Shown: in pieces, positions 2,598 to 27,369 of the stretch | Layout: each line of letters begins with the position of its first letter | Position numbering within the stretch: position 1 is the first letter of the stretch | Assembly: GCA_020349965.1 (NCBI GenBank) | Contig: CP070705.1 | Span: 2,134,905-2,198,904 of the forward strand | Source: Caldifarciminota bacterium | GTDB lineage: Bacteria; Hydrothermota; Tepidihabitantia; SM23-42 | Direction of reading: 5' to 3' | Length of the DNA stretch: 64,000 bases | The notes under the pieces: generated by a model | Databases searched by the model: none | What the model saw: the letters and a program-made list of their open reading frames with translations, nothing else | Told to the model about the DNA's origin: nothing | Made by a program: the position numbers and the translations under genes

Positions 2598-4685
2598 TTA
2601 CTGCTTGATATCGACATAATTGGTTTCCAGCCGGAAAGGCTTGAAAGGCTTGCTTCCGCCACTATAGAATCTGCCGAAGAATTCGATATACTGAAGCCGC
2701 ATGGTATGGATGAATCCACCGAGGGTATTTATGATCAGATTGAAGAGGTGGCTCGGAATTAGAATGATGACGACCAGGACTACGCCAATGACCGGGATTC
2801 CGGTAATCATCCAGGCGATTTTATTGATGGCGATGGCAATGACGCCCGTCACCATGCCAAGTGCCATCAGCCGGACATAGGAGAGGAGTACACCGAGATA
2901 GTTGGAAATGCCGTAAAGATTATAGAACCCCCACGCTATCTTGCCCAGGACCTTTTTCATCTCTTTGGGGCGTGTAAATTCAAAGACCATTAAGGGGATG
3001 GCTGCCAAGTAAAGATAAACTGGGATCTGAATTACATATCTTATGTTCAAGAAACCGAAGGCGAAGCTCGAAATCCCATACCATGTGAAGAAAACAACCG
3101 GAGCCCAAGCGAGCTGATCAACTGCTTTGGGCTTGCCCTCGGGATGTGAAGCAATGATGACACCGACAATACAGATCCATAAGATCAACTCAAAGATGGC
3201 TTTGCCCAAGAGCGATTTGCTGAAGACAACTGCATATAGCAGGATACTGGGTATGATTATAAACCACGTCAGGTTGGCGAAAATAGCCTGGCCATACTCG
3301 CCGTTCTTGAAGTTGTCCACAACTTCAATGGCGATGCCCAGCATCATGTGGACAAAACCCAGACCCAATGCGAGACCGATGAAGATCATTGGGTCCTTGA
3401 CCGGGTCGAATAGCATTACCGAATTCTTGAACCGAATGAGCGGCTCGAAGCCTATGTATTCGAAGATGTCACCGGCCCAGCCGCCCACCATGGCGCCTGC
3501 GAATATTGTCAATATTCCGCCGACCAGGAGGATCTTGAACAGACTTTTATCGCCGGTGACGCGCTTCATCAGGTAAAGGGAGATGATTATTAGTAATACA
3601 CCGTATAGGGCATCAGTGATGCAGAGTCCGAACATGACCGGGAAGAAGAATGCGAGAAAAGGCGTCGGGTCGTATTCTCGGGGGTCAGGCATGCTGTATA
3701 GTTTAACGAGCATTTCATACGGTTTGCTCAATGTGGCATTCTGCAGCGCGACCGGAGGACGTTCATCCGGGTCTCTTTCAACCTTATCGTAGAAAGCATA
3801 CCCGAACTTATTGATGAGCTTGTCAAGCCGCTTCAGGTTGCGTTTCAAGATCCAGCCGATGATATTTGTGGTACGTACCGTTTCCGGCAAAGAGTTAGTT
3901 ATGCCCTCCTTCTTCTGCAGAACAGAAAGCAGGTCAGAAGATGCCTCAAGGTTGAGGACCTCCTCTGCCAGATCCTCTTCGTGTTCGTTCAACTCATCTA
4001 ACCTGGTGCGGATGCGGCGCAATTCCTGCTCGAACCGATCGACCAACATCGCCGGTTTACCGGCATGAGAACGAAAATCCACTATTTCGCAGCCTAACTC
4101 GGTCAACCTAGTACGGAGCGTAGTACTCTGTTCTTTCTTCACAAAGAACAGGCAATAAAGTAGGGTTCCGGCGGAATTTACCTGTTCGAAGGAATGTGGA
4201 ATCTCTGAGATTGTAGCAATCAATTGAAGAATGTCCGGCCCCGGGATGGCGACCGGAAGAACTTCGGTTTGCCGGAATTCGCGTAGAGATTCCAGATCTG
4301 TATCAAGAGGCTGCCAGGGCGATAGGAGAGCAATATCGTCTTCGAGTTGTCGGGCTCGCGTCGATAGTGCTTCGCGTTCGGCCTTGATGCCTTCGAGTGT
4401 TGCTGCGGTTTTCGTGTGATCATAAGACTCGGCCAAATCGACAAAACTATCGTAAGACATCGAACGCTTCATATTGAAGAACATTGAAAGGGGATGGCGT
4501 TTCTTGTAAGCGCCTATTTGATTAAGAGCATCGGCGATACGGTTAAGTTCTTCGGATGTCTGGAGTGTCGTCTCTTGGAGTTCGCTAATGTGGACGATCC
4601 CCTCCCGCTGCAATTCTTTGACGAACTCTTCCTTTATGCTCTTATGAACGACAATTTGGATCTTTTCTACCGGGAGGACGGCCAT
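2598..4685 (-). CDS. ntpI: V/A-type ATPase subunit I (membrane stator)
   Basis: 695 aa, close to the family's usual 650-700. The N-terminal half (about residues 1-330) is soluble with long coiled coils (RIRTRLDELNEHEEDLAEEV). The C-terminal half (about 340-690) carries seven to eight membrane spans that form the ion half-channels and bear the peripheral stalks. The start MAVLPVEKIQ lies inside the 3' end of the subunit H gene (19-bp overlap), consistent with one operon and translational coupling. Confidence 0.93.
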   Translation of the reverse strand: MAVLPVEKIQIVVHKSIKEEFVKELQREGIVHISELQETTLQTSEELNRIADALNQIGAYKKRHPLSMFFNMKRSMSYDSFVDLAESYDHTKTAATLEGIKAEREALSTRARQLEDDIALLSPWQPLDTDLESLREFRQTEVLPVAIPGPDILQLIATISEIPHSFEQVNSAGTLLYCLFFVKKEQSTTLRTRLTELGCEIVDFRSHAGKPAMLVDRFEQELRRIRTRLDELNEHEEDLAEEVLNLEASSDLLSVLQKKEGITNSLPETVRTTNIIGWILKRNLKRLDKLINKFGYAFYDKVERDPDERPPVALQNATLSKPYEMLVKLYSMPDPREYDPTPFLAFFFPVMFGLCITDALYGVLLIIISLYLMKRVTGDKSLFKILLVGGILTIFAGAMVGGWAGDIFEYIGFEPLIRFKNSVMLFDPVKDPMIFIGLALGLGFVHMMLGIAIEVVDNFKNGEYGQAIFANLTWFIIIPSILLYAVVFSKSLLGKAIFELILWICIVGVIIASHPEGKPKAVDQLAWAPVVFFTWYGISSFAFGFLNIRYVIQIPVYLYLAAIPLMVFEFTRPKEMKKVLGKIAWGFYNLYGISNYLGVLLSYVRLMALGMVTGVIAIAINKIAWMITGIPVIGVVLVVIILIPSHLFNLIINTLGGFIHTMRLQYIEFFGRFYSGGSKPFKPFRLETNYVDIKQ

Positions 4686-22002: not shown

Positions 22003-22655
22003 GGGGTAATCTTATCCTTTAAGACGGGGGCGATCATTGCCGTACTGCCTGAGATGAAAGCATAATTTCTTTGCCCGTCGCCGAGTCGGTGGGAAAAAAA
22101 GGATTCGGGGTGACACTTCGTGCAAAGGTCGAGTGCTCCGATAAGCGACCCGGAGCCAAGGTCATGCATGACGGCTGCCTTAAGGTCCAGGAAATAACCG
22201 TCGTTGTATTGCGTTACTGCATGAGGGTAATCATGCGTGAACAGGTCGGCAACGTCCTGTTGGACCTCATAGCAGCATTTGCCGATCGAAGCGCCCATGA
22301 CATAGGTAAAATTCTTCAGTATCCTCTTCGCTTCCTTGGCGATACCTGCGATAATACCACGCCAACCGCAGTGGATTATACATATTTTGCCCGGCGCGAA
22401 CAGATAAACGGGAAGACAATCCGCGACCTTTACGCCGATGCACTTGTCCACGGAGCTCACGAGGCCATCGCCGACATACTCAGCTGCTGCGTCGACGTCA
22501 ACTATGACCCTTGAGTGAATCTGTTTCAGAAATACCGGATTGGCATCACTGATGAGATTATCCTGCCCGTGCTTTGTCGTGTAGAAGGCAGAATGATCGC
22601 CTTTCTTAAACTCGTAATACCTGCTCTTGCCCGTGTCGACCAATCGCCACTTCAT
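21999..22655 (-). CDS. pgeF: PgeF/YfiH family (multicopper-oxidase-like, peptidoglycan editing)
   Basis: 218 aa. KVADCLPVYLF and IIHCGWRGIIAGI hold the Cys and His of the metal-dependent active site, and KCCYEV and CTKCHPESFFSHR are also family features. In E. coli the protein prevents wrong amino acids in peptidoglycan precursors; other members act on purine nucleosides, so substrate is open. Its start shares one base with the recJ stop. Confidence 0.88.
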   Translation of the reverse strand: MKWRLVDTGKSRYYEFKKGDHSAFYTTKHGQDNLISDANPVFLKQIHSRVIVDVDAAAEYVGDGLVSSVDKCIGVKVADCLPVYLFAPGKICIIHCGWRGIIAGIAKEAKRILKNFTYVMGASIGKCCYEVQQDVADLFTHDYPHAVTQYNDGYFLDLKAAVMHDLGSGSLIGALDLCTKCHPESFFSHRLGDGQRNYAFISGSTAMIAPVLKDKITP

Positions 22656-24352
22656 CAGTTGGCCCTCGTCATCTCTTTGATCTTGAGCGTGGTTTTCCTT
22701 TTGCCCAGAAATGAGTCCTCAGCCACAGAATAGAGACAGTTGATACGAGTCTTGCCTACTTCTATATCGAGGATATCGTCTGCCCTGTCGTAGGCAATTG
22801 CAGGGAATACCCTGCCATGTTGCCTCAAGGAGATCATCAAATGGTTCTGATTGGCACCGACGACCCGCGGCACGCCGACGACTTCGAGGTTTTCACCAAG
22901 AAATGTCGGTTGGGGGTTGGCGATGCCGGTTGGCTCGAAGAATCTCAGGAAATGAACTACATCACTGGTCAGATGGGGAAGATCGAGTTGCATATCATAG
23001 AAACTGCATTTCTCAAATAGCGAGCCCTCGAATCTCTGGGCATATTCATTCACACAGACTTTGAATCGGTCGAGTTTATCAATGTGGAGTTCGACTCCGG
23101 CAGCTTGGGCGTGACCGCCATATTTCTTCAGGATTTCCCCACACGTCCCAATCGCTGCAGTGATGTCAAACCCGGGTATGGAACGTGCCGAGCCTTTGAC
23201 CGTATCGTTTCTGATCGTCATTATGATGACCGGGCGGAAATAATCGGAGGCTATGCGCGAAGCAACGATCCCGAGCACGCCTTCGTGCCAGCCTGTATGG
23301 GCTAGTACAATGACACGGTTTTGTGCAGTCTCTGCTGCTTGTATCATGGATACTGCGGCGCGATATGTCTCGTCCTGTACTTCCTTCCTCGTTTCGTTGT
23401 CCACGGAAAGACTCCGGGCGATTTTGAGGGCACGGGACATATCTTGCGTTAGAAAGAGTTCCAGCGCGTTCTGCGCATCATGCATTCGGCCGCAGGCATT
23501 TATGCGCGGACCAACGATGAAGCCGAGATGGTGCGCGTTGATCTCACCGGACAAACCTGTTTCTTTCAGCAGCGCCTTAATGCCTTTCTTATTGCTCCTT
23601 TGCATGCGATTCATACCGTACTTGATGAGAGTCCGGTTCTCGTCGATGAGCGGCACGATATCAACCACACTTCCGAGAGCGACGAGATCCAGATCTTTAT
23701 GGAGTTCTGCAACCGGTAGATCTAACTTTTTGTAGAGGGCGCTGAGTAATTTGAATGCGACGCCGACCCCGGCAAGTTCCTTGAATGGATAATTGCTGCC
23801 AGGTAATTTTGGGTTAATGAGAGCCAGTGCTGGAGGAAGGTCTTCTCTGGGTACGTGATGGTCGCATACGATGATATCTACGTTACGTTCATGTGCTAGT
23901 GCGATTTCGGTCAGTGCGCTGCTTCCGCAGTCGACTGTAATGACAAGCGTTCGTCGATCTGCGACTGCTTTCTCTATGCCATTGATTGACAGTCCATAAC
24001 CCTCTTCGAGTCGGTGCGGAATGTAGCAGTCAACGTCGAGACCGAAGCGCCTCAGGTTTGTCGTCAATAGGGCCGTCCCGGTGATTCCGTCTGCATCATA
24101 GTCGCCGTGGATCATGATTTTTTCTTTCTTCCTTATGGCGTCGATGATGCGTGCAACGGCTCTGTCCATGTCTTGCAGGAGAAATGGATCATGAAGGTCA
24201 GATAGTGACGGCGCAAAGAACTTCTCTATTGACCGGGGTGTGTAATAACCCCGGTTCTTTAGGATCTGAACTATGGGCGGCGGTATCCGCTTGCCTCTGA
24301 TCATGATGGCGGATGCTGTGCCCTGACTATTTTTAGATTCCCATCTGGTCAT
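22655..24352 (-). CDS. recJ: Single-stranded-DNA exonuclease RecJ
   Basis: 565 aa. DHH-family motifs are all visible: HGDYDADGITG (Asp pair), VITVDCG, CDHHVPRED, then the DHHA1 part with GVLGIVASRI and GGHAQAAGVEL, and a C-terminal OB-like region. Degrades ssDNA 5'-3' in repair. I chose the ATG at 24352; an in-frame TTG at 24364 lies only 2 nt after the -10 box and could hardly be in the transcript. No Shine-Dalgarno; the expected leader is under 10 nt. Confidence 0.92.
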   Translation of the reverse strand: MTRWESKNSQGTASAIMIRGKRIPPPIVQILKNRGYYTPRSIEKFFAPSLSDLHDPFLLQDMDRAVARIIDAIRKKEKIMIHGDYDADGITGTALLTTNLRRFGLDVDCYIPHRLEEGYGLSINGIEKAVADRRTLVITVDCGSSALTEIALAHERNVDIIVCDHHVPREDLPPALALINPKLPGSNYPFKELAGVGVAFKLLSALYKKLDLPVAELHKDLDLVALGSVVDIVPLIDENRTLIKYGMNRMQRSNKKGIKALLKETGLSGEINAHHLGFIVGPRINACGRMHDAQNALELFLTQDMSRALKIARSLSVDNETRKEVQDETYRAAVSMIQAAETAQNRVIVLAHTGWHEGVLGIVASRIASDYFRPVIIMTIRNDTVKGSARSIPGFDITAAIGTCGEILKKYGGHAQAAGVELHIDKLDRFKVCVNEYAQRFEGSLFEKCSFYDMQLDLPHLTSDVVHFLRFFEPTGIANPQPTFLGENLEVVGVPRVVGANQNHLMISLRQHGRVFPAIAYDRADDILDIEVGKTRINCLYSVAEDSFLGKRKTTLKIKEMTRAN

Positions 24353-24366
24353 GAGTGGATGCAATT

Positions 24367-24395: not shown

Positions 24396-24405
24396 TGAAT
24401 CAGAT

Positions 24406-24966
24406 GTGGGGTAATCTATAAGCCGGGTTCTGTAGTTGATAGCCATTTCTCTTGTTCCGGCATCACTGCCGGATTCTGCGCAACCTACCCGTTCCAGCCC
24501 TGGCCGCTTTTGACGGCAGGAAGAGGCGGGCCACCTCTACTGGAACTGCTTGGTTTTGCTTCGGATGGGGTTTGCCGTACCTCTGATGTCACCATCAGAG
24601 TGGTGAGCTCTTACCTCGCCATTTCACCCTTACCCAGCACCTTTGGTGGCACAACAGGCTTTGCATTGATGCCGTGTTCAATTCAACCCGTCTGACCAAA
24701 GCGCCTGGTCATGGCCTATGGCTGCAGCATTGAGATCGCCTGTAATCTTTGCATCAAGATCACCAACATCTTGTCTCTGAAGGACGCAGAAATTTCCTTC
24801 AAGCGATCGTTCTATCAATCTCATGTGCCACCAAAGGTGCTGGGCGGTATGTTTTCTGTGGCACTTTCCTCCCGCACACAAAGTGCGGGGCTTCCAGTTA
24901 GGAAGCATCCTGCCCTGTGAAGCCCGGACTTTCCTCTCACATGGAGCGGCTATCCGATTACCCCAC
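24406..24966 (-). ncRNA. rnpB: RNase P RNA (rnpB), class A, with large insertion
   Basis: Conserved blocks are unmistakable: GAGGAAAGTCCGGGCT near the 5' end, GGTAAGGGTGAAA and GGTAAGAGC in the middle, ACAGAACCCGGCTTATAGAT at the 3' end. The ends pair perfectly over 11 bp (helix P1, 24966-24956 with 24416-24406), which fixes both termini, and GATAGCC/GGCTATC forms P2. At about 561 nt it is far longer than the usual 350-420, because of an arm at the P8/P9 position (24633-24844). The ribozyme matures tRNA 5' ends. It is preceded by its own promoter. Confidence 0.95.
24633..24844 (-). repeat. Enlarged P8/P9 arm of rnpB with 21-bp perfect inverted repeat
   Basis: Arms 24824-24844 and 24633-24653 are exact reverse complements (21 bp) and enclose 170 nt. 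In E. coli this position, between ACCGCC and GGTAAGGG, holds only about 23 nt. The enclosed segment contains at least two small hairpins (GAAGGA/TCCTTC and GACCA/TGGTC) and no convincing reading frame. Confidence 0.85.
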
Positions 24967-25134: not shown

Positions 25135-27144
25135 TTATCGACCATCCGTGCGGTTGTGATTATAAGACAATTGCATGAAGTATGTGCGACGGGGCATGGG
25201 ATAATCGAGGTCAATCAATGTATTGCCGAATTGGAGCGCATAGTCTGTATCGAACAAGTTTTTTATACCGACAGACAATGAGAACGTGTTGAAGAACTTT
25301 CTATTGACAGCAGTGTTGATTACCAGATAATCGTCGAGCACTTTCGTATCCATCGATACAGCTGGATAAGCGTCATAGTTCGCGTAATAATTGAATCGCC
25401 GAGAAGTATACTGTCCGGAAATGTTAAGTCCAAAACCATACGGTAGACTGAAATCGAGCACAGAAGATATGGTGAAATCCGGCGTGAAGGCGGCTGGTCG
25501 CTCTATTTCTTCATAAATTGTCAGAGAAGTATCTGCTATAGCGTCATAATAGTCATAAACGATCTCATCGTTCGTCTGCCGGGCGTTCAGAAAAGTGAGT
25601 TCGATGGCGTGCGCGAGAAAACTGGCTATTTGGTGTTCCAATTCCATGTCCAATCCCTCTATCTTCAAATAGTTGACATTCTGCGGATGCCACAATTTAT
25701 CGTCCCCTGGCAGCCATGCGATCCGATCCTTGACGTTGCGCAGGAAAAACGAGACTGCCGCAAAGAAATTTGGCAGTAGCGAACTCTCGATGCGTATCTC
25801 ATACGCCCAGCCGTGCTCTGGTTTGAGGTCGGGATTACCGGATTGAGGCCAGTAGAGGTCATTGAAGGTTGGTGCACGAAACGTATTTCCGATCGATAAT
25901 TTGAGCCAGATCATTTCAGCAGGCATACAAGAAATACCGATTGCGGGTGAAAGGAAATCGCCGAAGGCTGAATTGCGGTCGTAACGGATGCTTGGCGTTG
26001 CAGATAAAATATCGTGCAGGTTCACTTGCAATTCGGTCCACACGCCGACATTATATGAACTTGCATGCCAGTTCATATCGCCGCTAAGAGTTGAAACAGT
26101 CTTTGTGTGGAGGGTGTCATAGGTTGCGTCGAACCCGAGCGTAAACGCAAGTTTCTCCCAGCGCATGTTCAGCATTGCGTTGAAGCCGAGCATGTGAGTC
26201 AGATAATCATATTCTTCGCTTATTGTATCACCTGACCACCATCCTCCGTAAGTAGTACTGAATATTGTACGCTTCCGGTCAGCAAGAATCTTGCCTTGCC
26301 ACAATGCATCATCCGTAACCTGCAGGTCAACACCAAGATTCACCAGCAGCGAACGATCGATTTGCCGGTCAAAGACCGATGTTGCAGTACTGTCACCGAA
26401 TTGTGGTATTGGATGTAAACTGTCCACGATCGGCGCGGGCCCGGGTATTCCGTATTCCTTCTGGGTGTAGTAGATGAACGAGGAGTATTCTACGCGCTCT
26501 GATTTTTGTACAATTGAGCCACTGACGTTATACCGCGTCAGATCGCTGTTACTTCGTCCACCATCAGAGGTGCCGTAATTAACACCGATATCAAATTGTG
26601 TTTTCTTTACAGGCAGTCCGACTTTGAGAAAGAGATCATTTGTATGCAGCGGATCATCGAGCGCGGGCGTGGAAGGTGCGAATTTCATTGCGATCGTTGG
26701 CATACTCAATTCGCGGCGTGTAATTATATTCACGACGCCGCCGAGCGCATTCGCACCGTAGAGGCTTGAAACCGGTCCTTTGACCACCTCGATTCGCTCG
26801 ATCGTGTTTACATCGATCATACTCAGGTCGGCCATGCCATTGGTGACCGCGTTCAGGTTCTGTCCGTTGACGAGAACGAGGGTACCATTGCTCGGTACCC
26901 CGCGTAATGATATGCCCGTCACCCCGCCTGGCGTGCCGTAGTCTTTGAAATCTATGCCCGCAGCAGCGTTGAGAATTTCACTTAGGCTGATGGGGCTTAG
27001 CTTATCGATATCTTCACGCTCGATGACGATTACCGCAACAGCGGCGTCCTTTAGAAGAGCAGGGTATCGGTTGGCAGTGACTACGACCTCATCCATCTCA
27101 TAGGAGATTTGGTTGAGTAACAGCGACGTTAGTAGAAGTAACAT
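25135..27144 (-). CDS. btuB: TonB-dependent outer-membrane receptor, probably for cobalamin (BtuB-like)
   Basis: 669 aa. Short signal peptide, then EVVVTANRYP (TonB-box-like region), a plug domain (about residues 25-140 with ISLRGVPSNGTLVLVNGQ and VEVVKGP/SSLYGANALGGVVNI) and a 22-strand barrel ending PRRTYFMQLSYN plus seven polar residues. Cobalamin as substrate is inferred from the riboswitch directly upstream. No ExbBD, TonB or BtuCDF genes lie in the window. AGGAGG precedes the ATG and is partly paired in the riboswitch expression platform. Confidence 0.88.
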   Translation of the reverse strand: MLLLLTSLLLNQISYEMDEVVVTANRYPALLKDAAVAVIVIEREDIDKLSPISLSEILNAAAGIDFKDYGTPGGVTGISLRGVPSNGTLVLVNGQNLNAVTNGMADLSMIDVNTIERIEVVKGPVSSLYGANALGGVVNIITRRELSMPTIAMKFAPSTPALDDPLHTNDLFLKVGLPVKKTQFDIGVNYGTSDGGRSNSDLTRYNVSGSIVQKSERVEYSSFIYYTQKEYGIPGPAPIVDSLHPIPQFGDSTATSVFDRQIDRSLLVNLGVDLQVTDDALWQGKILADRKRTIFSTTYGGWWSGDTISEEYDYLTHMLGFNAMLNMRWEKLAFTLGFDATYDTLHTKTVSTLSGDMNWHASSYNVGVWTELQVNLHDILSATPSIRYDRNSAFGDFLSPAIGISCMPAEMIWLKLSIGNTFRAPTFNDLYWPQSGNPDLKPEHGWAYEIRIESSLLPNFFAAVSFFLRNVKDRIAWLPGDDKLWHPQNVNYLKIEGLDMELEHQIASFLAHAIELTFLNARQTNDEIVYDYYDAIADTSLTIYEEIERPAAFTPDFTISSVLDFSLPYGFGLNISGQYTSRRFNYYANYDAYPAVSMDTKVLDDYLVINTAVNRKFFNTFSLSVGIKNLFDTDYALQFGNTLIDLDYPMPRRTYFMQLSYNHNRTDGR

Positions 27145-27159: not shown

Positions 27160-27335
27160 CCGAAGGTTATATGTAGCTGGGGATAGGTCTCCTGGCTTAT
27201 CCTGTTCTGATCAGCCTTCCCGTCCGCAGGCAATAAATAAGCGGTAGCAGTGGCTTTCTTTGATCGGAAATAGATGGAATCACAGTGGCGGCGACCGCGG
27301 CCGATTCTCACGGCGCTTCCCTTGAATCCACCAGC
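27160..27335 (-). promoter_or_regulatory. Cobalamin riboswitch
   Basis: The minus strand carries the B12-box set in order: GATTCAAGGGAAGC, GTGAGAATC, CCGCCACTGTGATTCC, GCCACTG, GGGAAGG-like and the B12 box AGCCAGGAGACCT. After the box, CCTT pairs with AAGG of the receptor Shine-Dalgarno (27150-27165 region), so control is probably translational: bound B12 should keep the site closed. Boundaries are approximate. Confidence 0.93.
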
Positions 27336-27340
27336 CTGTC

Positions 27341-27369
27341 AGTATACCTTATGTATCAAAGGTTGTCAA
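27341..27369 (-). promoter_or_regulatory. Promoter of the riboswitch-receptor transcript
   Basis: Minus strand TTGACA (27369-27364), 17-nt spacer, TATACT (27346-27341); the transcript would begin near 27335, just before the riboswitch. Confidence 0.75.

Follow-up and report, generated by a model that had tools for sequence, protein, structure and literature searches.

The RNase P RNA gene (rnpB) of a Caldifarciminota bacterium, a member of the WOR-3 group, carries a long arm in its P12 hairpin, which we regard, with a probability of roughly 85 %, as a decayed, non-coding copy of a small palindromic GIY-YIG hairpin element that is tolerated at the P12 tip. The gene is located within a stretch of 64,000 nt (positions 2,134,905 to 2,198,904 of contig CP070705.1, GenBank assembly GCA_020349965.1), which is referred to as the window and is numbered from its first letter. 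An intact element of this kind has a length of approximately 250-350 bp and comprises terminal inverted repeats and a single gene, coding for a single-domain GIY-YIG nuclease of around 80 residues. Sequence comparisons show homology between the arm and such elements. At least two phyla have these elements inside hairpins of their RNase P RNA, and the occupancy of P9, P12 and the hairpin beside P17 varies among the species of a single genus. Genomes and loci are denoted below by G and L numbers, respectively, with G000 being the window genome.

The P12 arm and its ends

A sequence-only reading of the window had reported an RNase P RNA with an intact core, a P1 helix of 11 bp and an arm closed by a perfect 21-bp helix, and these three observations were borne out. 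The covariance model RF00010 matched positions 24965-24403 of the minus strand with 255.0 bits (gathering score 100) over the whole model (1-367), and the gene can thus be assigned to the class A RNase P RNAs on the basis of a full-length match exceeding the curated cut-off. The same reading had placed the arm at the P8/P9 position and given it 212 nt. According to the Rfam alignment, it is P12, the outer hairpin at the tip of the specificity domain, that contains the long insert, between ACCGCC and GGTAAGGG, with P8 and P9 being short and situated elsewhere, and the interval between the anchors is 208 nt. The counterpart interval in Escherichia coli measures about 23 nt. The following parts of the arm could be distinguished:

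24635..24842, minus strand: P12 insert, non-coding element copy of 208 nt (Rfam alignment, relatives, homology models)
24824..24844, minus strand: left terminal inverted repeat, the 5' strand of the 21-bp arm base (CCCAGCACCTTTGGTGGCACA; sequence, covariation)
24633..24653, minus strand: right terminal inverted repeat, the 3' strand of the 21-bp arm base (sequence, covariation)
24816..24823, minus strand: 5' strand of the inner helix (TGAGATTG), running straight on from the terminal repeat (arm alignment, pair counts)
24731..24738, minus strand: 3' strand of the inner helix (CGATCTCA; arm alignment, pair counts), where the block GATCTC or AATCTC belongs to the GIY-YIG gene in coding copies

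With its termini, GCACCTTTGG…CCAAAGGTGC, the window arm displays the terminal inverted repeats of a mobile element, and repeats of the CC.GCACC type, which characterise the GIY-YIG hairpin elements, are present at both ends of the insert. The arm-end motif occurs in two places in the window, both at the arm, with 0.01 occurrences expected. The arm has a folding energy of -95.5 kcal/mol, as compared to -64.4 +/- 4.7 kcal/mol for its shuffles (z = -6.7), and none of 200 shuffles folded as well. Seven arms from five species were aligned, and 19 bp of the terminal helix and the 8-bp inner helix were compared; 95.8 % of the cells are paired and both-sided changes occur in 14 cells, against 4.7 in shuffles (0/500). 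All 14 sit in the terminal helix. The inner helix is nearly invariant, and its 3' strand, GATCTCA, matches a block of the nuclease gene in coding copies. As pairing has been kept despite sequence change, the arm has retained its folding while most of its other sequence drifted. The sequence-only reading ascribed the perfect base to either selection or recent insertion. The stem is perfect because it consists of the terminal inverted repeats of the element, and alongside this explanation its sequence varies among copies yet stays paired.

Homology to GIY-YIG elements and turnover among relatives

A hidden Markov model (HMM) of seven coding copies matches both ends of the window arm, in the expected order, with 10.1 and 5.5 bits, while the best score among 700 dinucleotide-shuffled arms is 3.1 bits. 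When the terminal repeats are removed, this model still matches five of nine non-coding arms (1.5 to 14.8 bits), with the best of 702 background pieces scoring -1.6 bits. A covariance model, R1, was built from five non-coding arms alone and run on 27 whole genomes. Its matches at E < 1e-3 comprise rnpB arms, including a truncated GIY-YIG copy in the P12 of G012, and, as the sole matches outside rnpB at this threshold, a GIY-YIG element close to gltX in each of G007 and G004 (E 7e-6 to 8e-6). The coding copy in the P12 of G011 is matched in its interior only (E 0.05). Elements with the same kind of ends are found outside rnpB behind a tRNA-Ser gene in G009 and at the two gltX sites, where the copy of G007 is intact and that of G004, behind tRNA-Ser, is broken. 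A seemingly decayed right end of an element was furthermore read by eye between tRNA-Ser(GCT) and gltX in the window genome (G000:C1 near 1,310,700; L219), a site that is not reported by R1.

The distribution of arms among relatives accords with an inserted element, the one of the three options offered by the sequence-only reading (species-level expansion, inserted element, platform for a protein) that is supported. RNase P RNA was matched in 121 of the 147 genomes of the phylum. Eight rnpB genes exceed 500 nt by the coordinates of the phylum scan, to which those of G009 and G022 are added when scanned as whole loci, and eight of these ten long genes belong to the window's own family. The genes were cut into segments to locate the extra length (G022 and G002, which were not parsed by the script, were read by eye), and it sits at the tips of P3, P9 and P12 and of the hairpin just 3' of P17. 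Fourteen such arms are present in the rnpB of eight genomes of family f1 (segment table plus L085). They occur in P12 (G000, G004, G006, G007, G009, G011 and G012), P9 (G006, G007, G009 and G022), P3 (G011) and beside P17 (G004 and G006), with three arms in the gene of G006 and two each in those of G004, G007, G009 and G011. Some of these inserts still code for the nuclease. Open GIY-YIG genes are found in the P12 insert of G011 (84 codons; PF01541, E 2.2e-11), which ends in CCCCGCACCT…AGGTGCGGGG, the same kind of ends as those of the window arm, and in the P9 insert of G022 (PF01541, E 4e-18), while the P9 insert of G009 and the P12 insert of G012 contain broken GIY-YIG genes.

Comparison of the rnpB of close relatives, as the sequence-only reading had proposed, counts in favour of insertion and against a species-level expansion: related P12 inserts, with 69 % and 61 % identity to the window copy, occur in two further species of the genus, and the arm is absent from the two nearest sisters. 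The P12 arm is present in G000, G004 and G007 and missing from G002 and G003. A tree based on RecJ and TonB places G002 beside G000 and groups G003 with G004 and G007, either as their sister or among them (support for the node inside this trio 45 %), and the arm must therefore have been gained once and lost at least twice, or gained at least twice. In congeners, the sites of the P9 arm of G007 (208 nt) and of the P17-side arm of G004 are not occupied by an arm of that type. The three arms of G006 share 82-84 % identity, which points to their having arisen by copying or gene conversion within one gene. In several species the short hairpins at P9 and P12 have the sequence CCCGCACC-NNN-GGTGCGGG or one close to it; they resemble an element reduced to its ends and may represent footprints of the element.

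Two further features were observed in the rnpB genes of relatives. In G009 a second rnpB-like sequence (L094; G009:C16) lacks P3 to P12, with a GIY-YIG element fusing the P2/P3 side to the 3' side of P12; it has the appearance of a recombination product of two copies of the element, a pseudogene or an artefact of assembly (the G009 genome has 7 % contamination). The P13/P14 segment contains other small double-hairpin inserts of the CCCG..CGGGATTCTCGTCC..GGACGGAA type, two in L039 (G010) and one in L033 (G007), which possibly constitute another rnpB repeat family.

Several results weigh against the interpretation of the arm as a decayed element. Once the terminal repeats are stripped, the coding-copy HMM shows no match to the interior of the window arm, which is therefore linked to the elements by way of the P12 arm of G007, the copy 69 % identical to it. 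The palindromic ends alone score 27-37 bits on the wrong strand, and part of each model score thus comes from the stem. A tblastn search of the G000 genome for the nuclease gene gave no matches, and the open reading frame overlapping the arm has no Pfam match; as no matching GIY-YIG gene was found in either arm or genome, the arm is at most a non-autonomous or decayed copy. The rnpB copies show no clear flanking target duplication, merely GAAAA for L116, and the copy tree of the arms is too weakly supported to order the jumps.

Other candidate origins were tried and set aside. There is no Rfam match to a group I or II intron in the window at the gathering threshold. The search for further copies in the genome, suggested in the sequence-only reading, recovered the arm's own locus and no other meaningful blastn match, and R1 reports the rnpB locus alone in G000, so that the arm does not belong to a repeat family dispersed in its own genome. 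As regards a phage origin, no more than five weak relatives were found in viral contigs. Solo palindromes of the form CCCGCACC(N2-30)GGTGCGGG, considered as simple targets, occur in 7/31 genomes, one to four times in each and not at all in G000, and are suggestive at most.

The rnpB gene at 24403-24966 is the sole RF00010 match in the 2.3-Mb genome, and is presumably the working copy for this reason. Its remaining features in the window are:

24403..24966, minus strand: rnpB, class A RNase P RNA with intact core (RF00010 covariance model)
24956..24966, minus strand: 5' strand of P1, pairing perfectly over 11 bp with 24406-24416 (sequence)
24406..24416, minus strand: 3' strand of P1 (sequence)
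24871..24890, minus strand: P9 hairpin CCCCGCAC..GTGCGGG, the site of a full element in G007, G006, G009 and G022

The P9 hairpin is possibly a solo-repeat footprint of the element. On the same strand, rnpB lies directly after the gene of a TonB-dependent receptor (25135-27144), with recJ (22655-24364) as its other neighbour, and a cobalamin riboswitch is situated upstream of the receptor gene (27165-27366, minus strand).

The nuclease family and its insertion sites

A scan of one genome per species yielded at least 505 relatives of the nuclease, of which the best 80 loci were analysed. These belong mostly to the Patescibacteria, Omnitrophota and WOR-3. The gene is surrounded by inverted repeats with a score of at least 11 in 62/80 loci, as opposed to 5/567 offset controls, with the 18 loci of lower score counted as misses. 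The repeat ends are mostly ACCCC[GC]CACC-like, and the terminal inverted repeats of intact elements start with CCCNGCACC or similar. In 20 of the 53 loci suited to this test (score of at least 11, CCC in the arm and flanks available), direct repeats of 6 nt or longer are found on the two sides of the element, against 7.6 % of mismatched pairs, and the clearest of them duplicate the 5' end of a tRNA gene.

The nuclease gene is found within, or no more than 60 nt from, a tRNA, rRNA or RNase P RNA gene in 26/80 loci (Rfam and ARAGORN). Nine lie inside an RNA gene (four rnpB, three 23S and two 16S), and a further seventeen within 60 nt of one (15 tRNA and two 16S, including the doubtful L184, whose contig ends there). 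In this count the rnpB boundaries of L157 and L177 were set by eye and one tRNA stems from ARAGORN. For controls at offset positions the count is 52/701, most of these in the same RNA-rich loci, and 5/462 in loci without a hit. The same-family genes situated within rRNA genes or at their end are those of L126, L160 and L176 (23S), L173 and L178 (16S) and L143 (16S 3' end). The 23S insert L176 is that of Lagierella massiliensis, which presumably lies outside the candidate phyla radiation (CPR).

Two of the four rnpB cases fall, by title, outside WOR-3. In L157 the element occupies P3, as it does, on the opposite strand, in L177 of Candidatus Azambacteria, whose rnpB, with 78.5 bits (E 8.5e-24), stays below the gathering score. 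The P19 position of L157 (around 3540-3580) is formed by a hairpin, CCCGCACATAAAT..TTTATGTGTGGG, the arms of which resemble the ends of the P3 element in the same rnpB and which could be a solo-repeat footprint. Seven of 20 unusually long rnpB genes carry CC.CAC-type repeats of at least 13 bp, with up to three arms per gene. These are found in CPR genomes of the class around L177 (G200, G143, G188, G110, G099 and G189) and in the WOR-3 genome G263, and no GIY-YIG match was found in these seven genes. Among the other long genes, that of G120 contains different CC-rich repeats, and the remaining twelve are without CC.CAC-type repeats of that length. The survey of rnpB arm ends covered 105 entries, with 96 rnpB regions located, and includes duplicate genomes (e.g. 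L041/L099 and L266/L291), so that its 19/34 counts loci and not independent events.

Six nuclease sequences share the invariant residues Y3, Y5, Y16, G18, H30 and E55. The active-site residues Y, G, R, H and E of the GIY-YIG fold are thus represented, with the central Arg falling in a K/R-rich block and not strictly invariant. In each of the 21 pairs among the seven coding copies, differences are most frequent at third codon positions, and the gene has therefore been conserved as a protein. The nearest solved structures are the UPF0213 proteins 1zg2 and 1ywl, followed by SLX1, which is a structure-specific nuclease, and an intron-associated endonuclease. Pfam scans of the nuclease return overlapping GIY-YIG-type families alone and no separate DNA-binding domain.

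Alternative explanations, mechanism and significance

It appears very improbable that the arm is an ordinary P12 expansion by drift, its likeness to GIY-YIG element ends being due to chance or convergence of G+C-rich hairpins. GC-rich P12 hairpins do occur in some class-level outgroups, but the same ends and inner block recur where other species carry arms in P9 or beside P17, open nuclease genes reside within the same kind of arm and the confident matches of R1 outside rnpB are GIY-YIG elements alone. Drift is thus largely refuted by the results of the coding-copy HMM, the covariation and the R1 model. Elements driven by a transposase typically have terminal inverted repeats and short direct repeats, and the arm could be likened to a miniature inverted-repeat transposable element moved by another transposase, with the GIY-YIG gene as a mere passenger. 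We consider this unlikely, given that this gene is the sole gene between the repeats in the coding copies read and that its third-position differences mark it as conserved at the protein level.

Two further alternatives concern what became of the arm. It could have been domesticated and kept for a use such as protein binding or RNA stabilisation, as the stem and inner helix are conserved across copies, with the stem covarying, while the rest drifts, and the 208-nt non-coding form is found in rnpB alone in G000, G004 and G007. The sister species G002 and G003 manage without this arm, however, and conserved pairing may merely reflect the sparing of the ribozyme or recognition by the nuclease; nothing was found in favour of the protein platform envisaged in the sequence-only reading, and domestication seems quite unlikely. 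A possible, though still doubtful, fate is that of an intervening sequence (IVS), with the 21-bp helix cut by RNase III (or the arm spliced out) and the RNase P RNA working in two pieces, in the manner of the 23S rRNA IVS. A perfect 21-bp helix suits a double-stranded RNase as substrate, and related elements reside in 16S and 23S genes (5/80 loci), where such processing is known, while the lack of an Rfam group I or II intron in the window speaks against splicing. This alternative concerns the RNA and not the origin of the arm, and is compatible with its being a decayed element.

For the movement of this element by its nuclease, its tolerance by the ribozyme and the fate of the arm in the RNA, we infer the following course. 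The nuclease would open DNA where it is G-rich or able to form hairpins, frequently within RNA genes, and repair or copying would install the element at the opened site, possibly with short G-rich duplications. Insertions at the hairpin tips of rnpB would be tolerated and accumulate, and their survival is proposed to result from pairing of the inverted repeats into a single long helix, by which the ribozyme core is not altered. The nuclease gene would subsequently decay, while the stem and inner helix persist. As no matching nuclease gene was found in the window's species, the arm is probably a passenger today, and it may be cleaved by RNase III in the RNA.

Mobile inserts in structural RNAs are already known, whereas GIY-YIG elements in bacterial rnpB were not found described in the open PMC literature, to which the search was confined. 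The accessible text of Tsurumaki et al. 2024 (PMC11270868) reports GIY-YIG-encoding insertion sequences, which are not introns, in CPR rRNA genes, most of the rRNA insertion sequences being located at the top or base of stem-loops, and considers the GIY-YIG inserts to lie outside spread by homing. It also mentions RNase III cleavage without ligation for intervening sequences, while the terms 'inverted repeat', 'hairpin', 'tRNA' and 'RNase P' are absent from its main text. As far as that text goes, both sets consist of GIY-YIG genes carried by inserts, not introns, in genes for structured RNAs; the CPR insertion sequences are described for rRNA alone, whereas the present description extends to terminal repeats and duplications, to sites at tRNA and RNase P RNA genes, and to copies that have decayed. 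Expansion of the P12 tip is known from archaeal and eukaryotic RNAs, according to the accessible text of PMC12974513.

The rnpB arms also resemble the IVS of bacterial 23S rRNA, in that both are inserted at hairpin tips of a structured RNA and have a long closing stem, but the IVS genes encode a different protein. Rickettsia palindromic elements, REP/REPIN-RAYT and the cyanobacterial STRR repeats, the last of which have been reported inside cyanobacterial RNase P RNA, are likewise palindromic or repeated selfish DNA, although to our knowledge none of them encodes a GIY-YIG nuclease. The element nuclease shares catalytic-domain motifs with the GIY-YIG homing endonucleases and UPF0213/SLX1, and differs in consisting of a single domain of around 80 residues with no added DNA-binding domain matched in Pfam.

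Few ribozymes are as strongly conserved as RNase P RNA, and where its peripheral helices vary in length, structural drift is usually held responsible. The large arms described here would have their source in a nuclease-encoding selfish element, in at least two phyla, and come and go within one genus. The odds appear evenly balanced that the one-gene GIY-YIG hairpin elements form an unrecognised class of bacterial mobile elements, which favours structured RNA genes (tRNA 5' ends, rRNA and RNase P RNA) and has repeatedly rebuilt P3, P9, P12, the P17-side hairpin and P19 in Patescibacteria and WOR-3, with some RNase P transcripts carrying the nuclease reading frame. Such elements offer a way to account for the GIY-YIG inserts, distinct from introns, in the rRNA genes of the CPR, which the 2024 study leaves open in its accessible text (PMC11270868), and give a testable answer to the question of how structured RNAs gain expansion segments.
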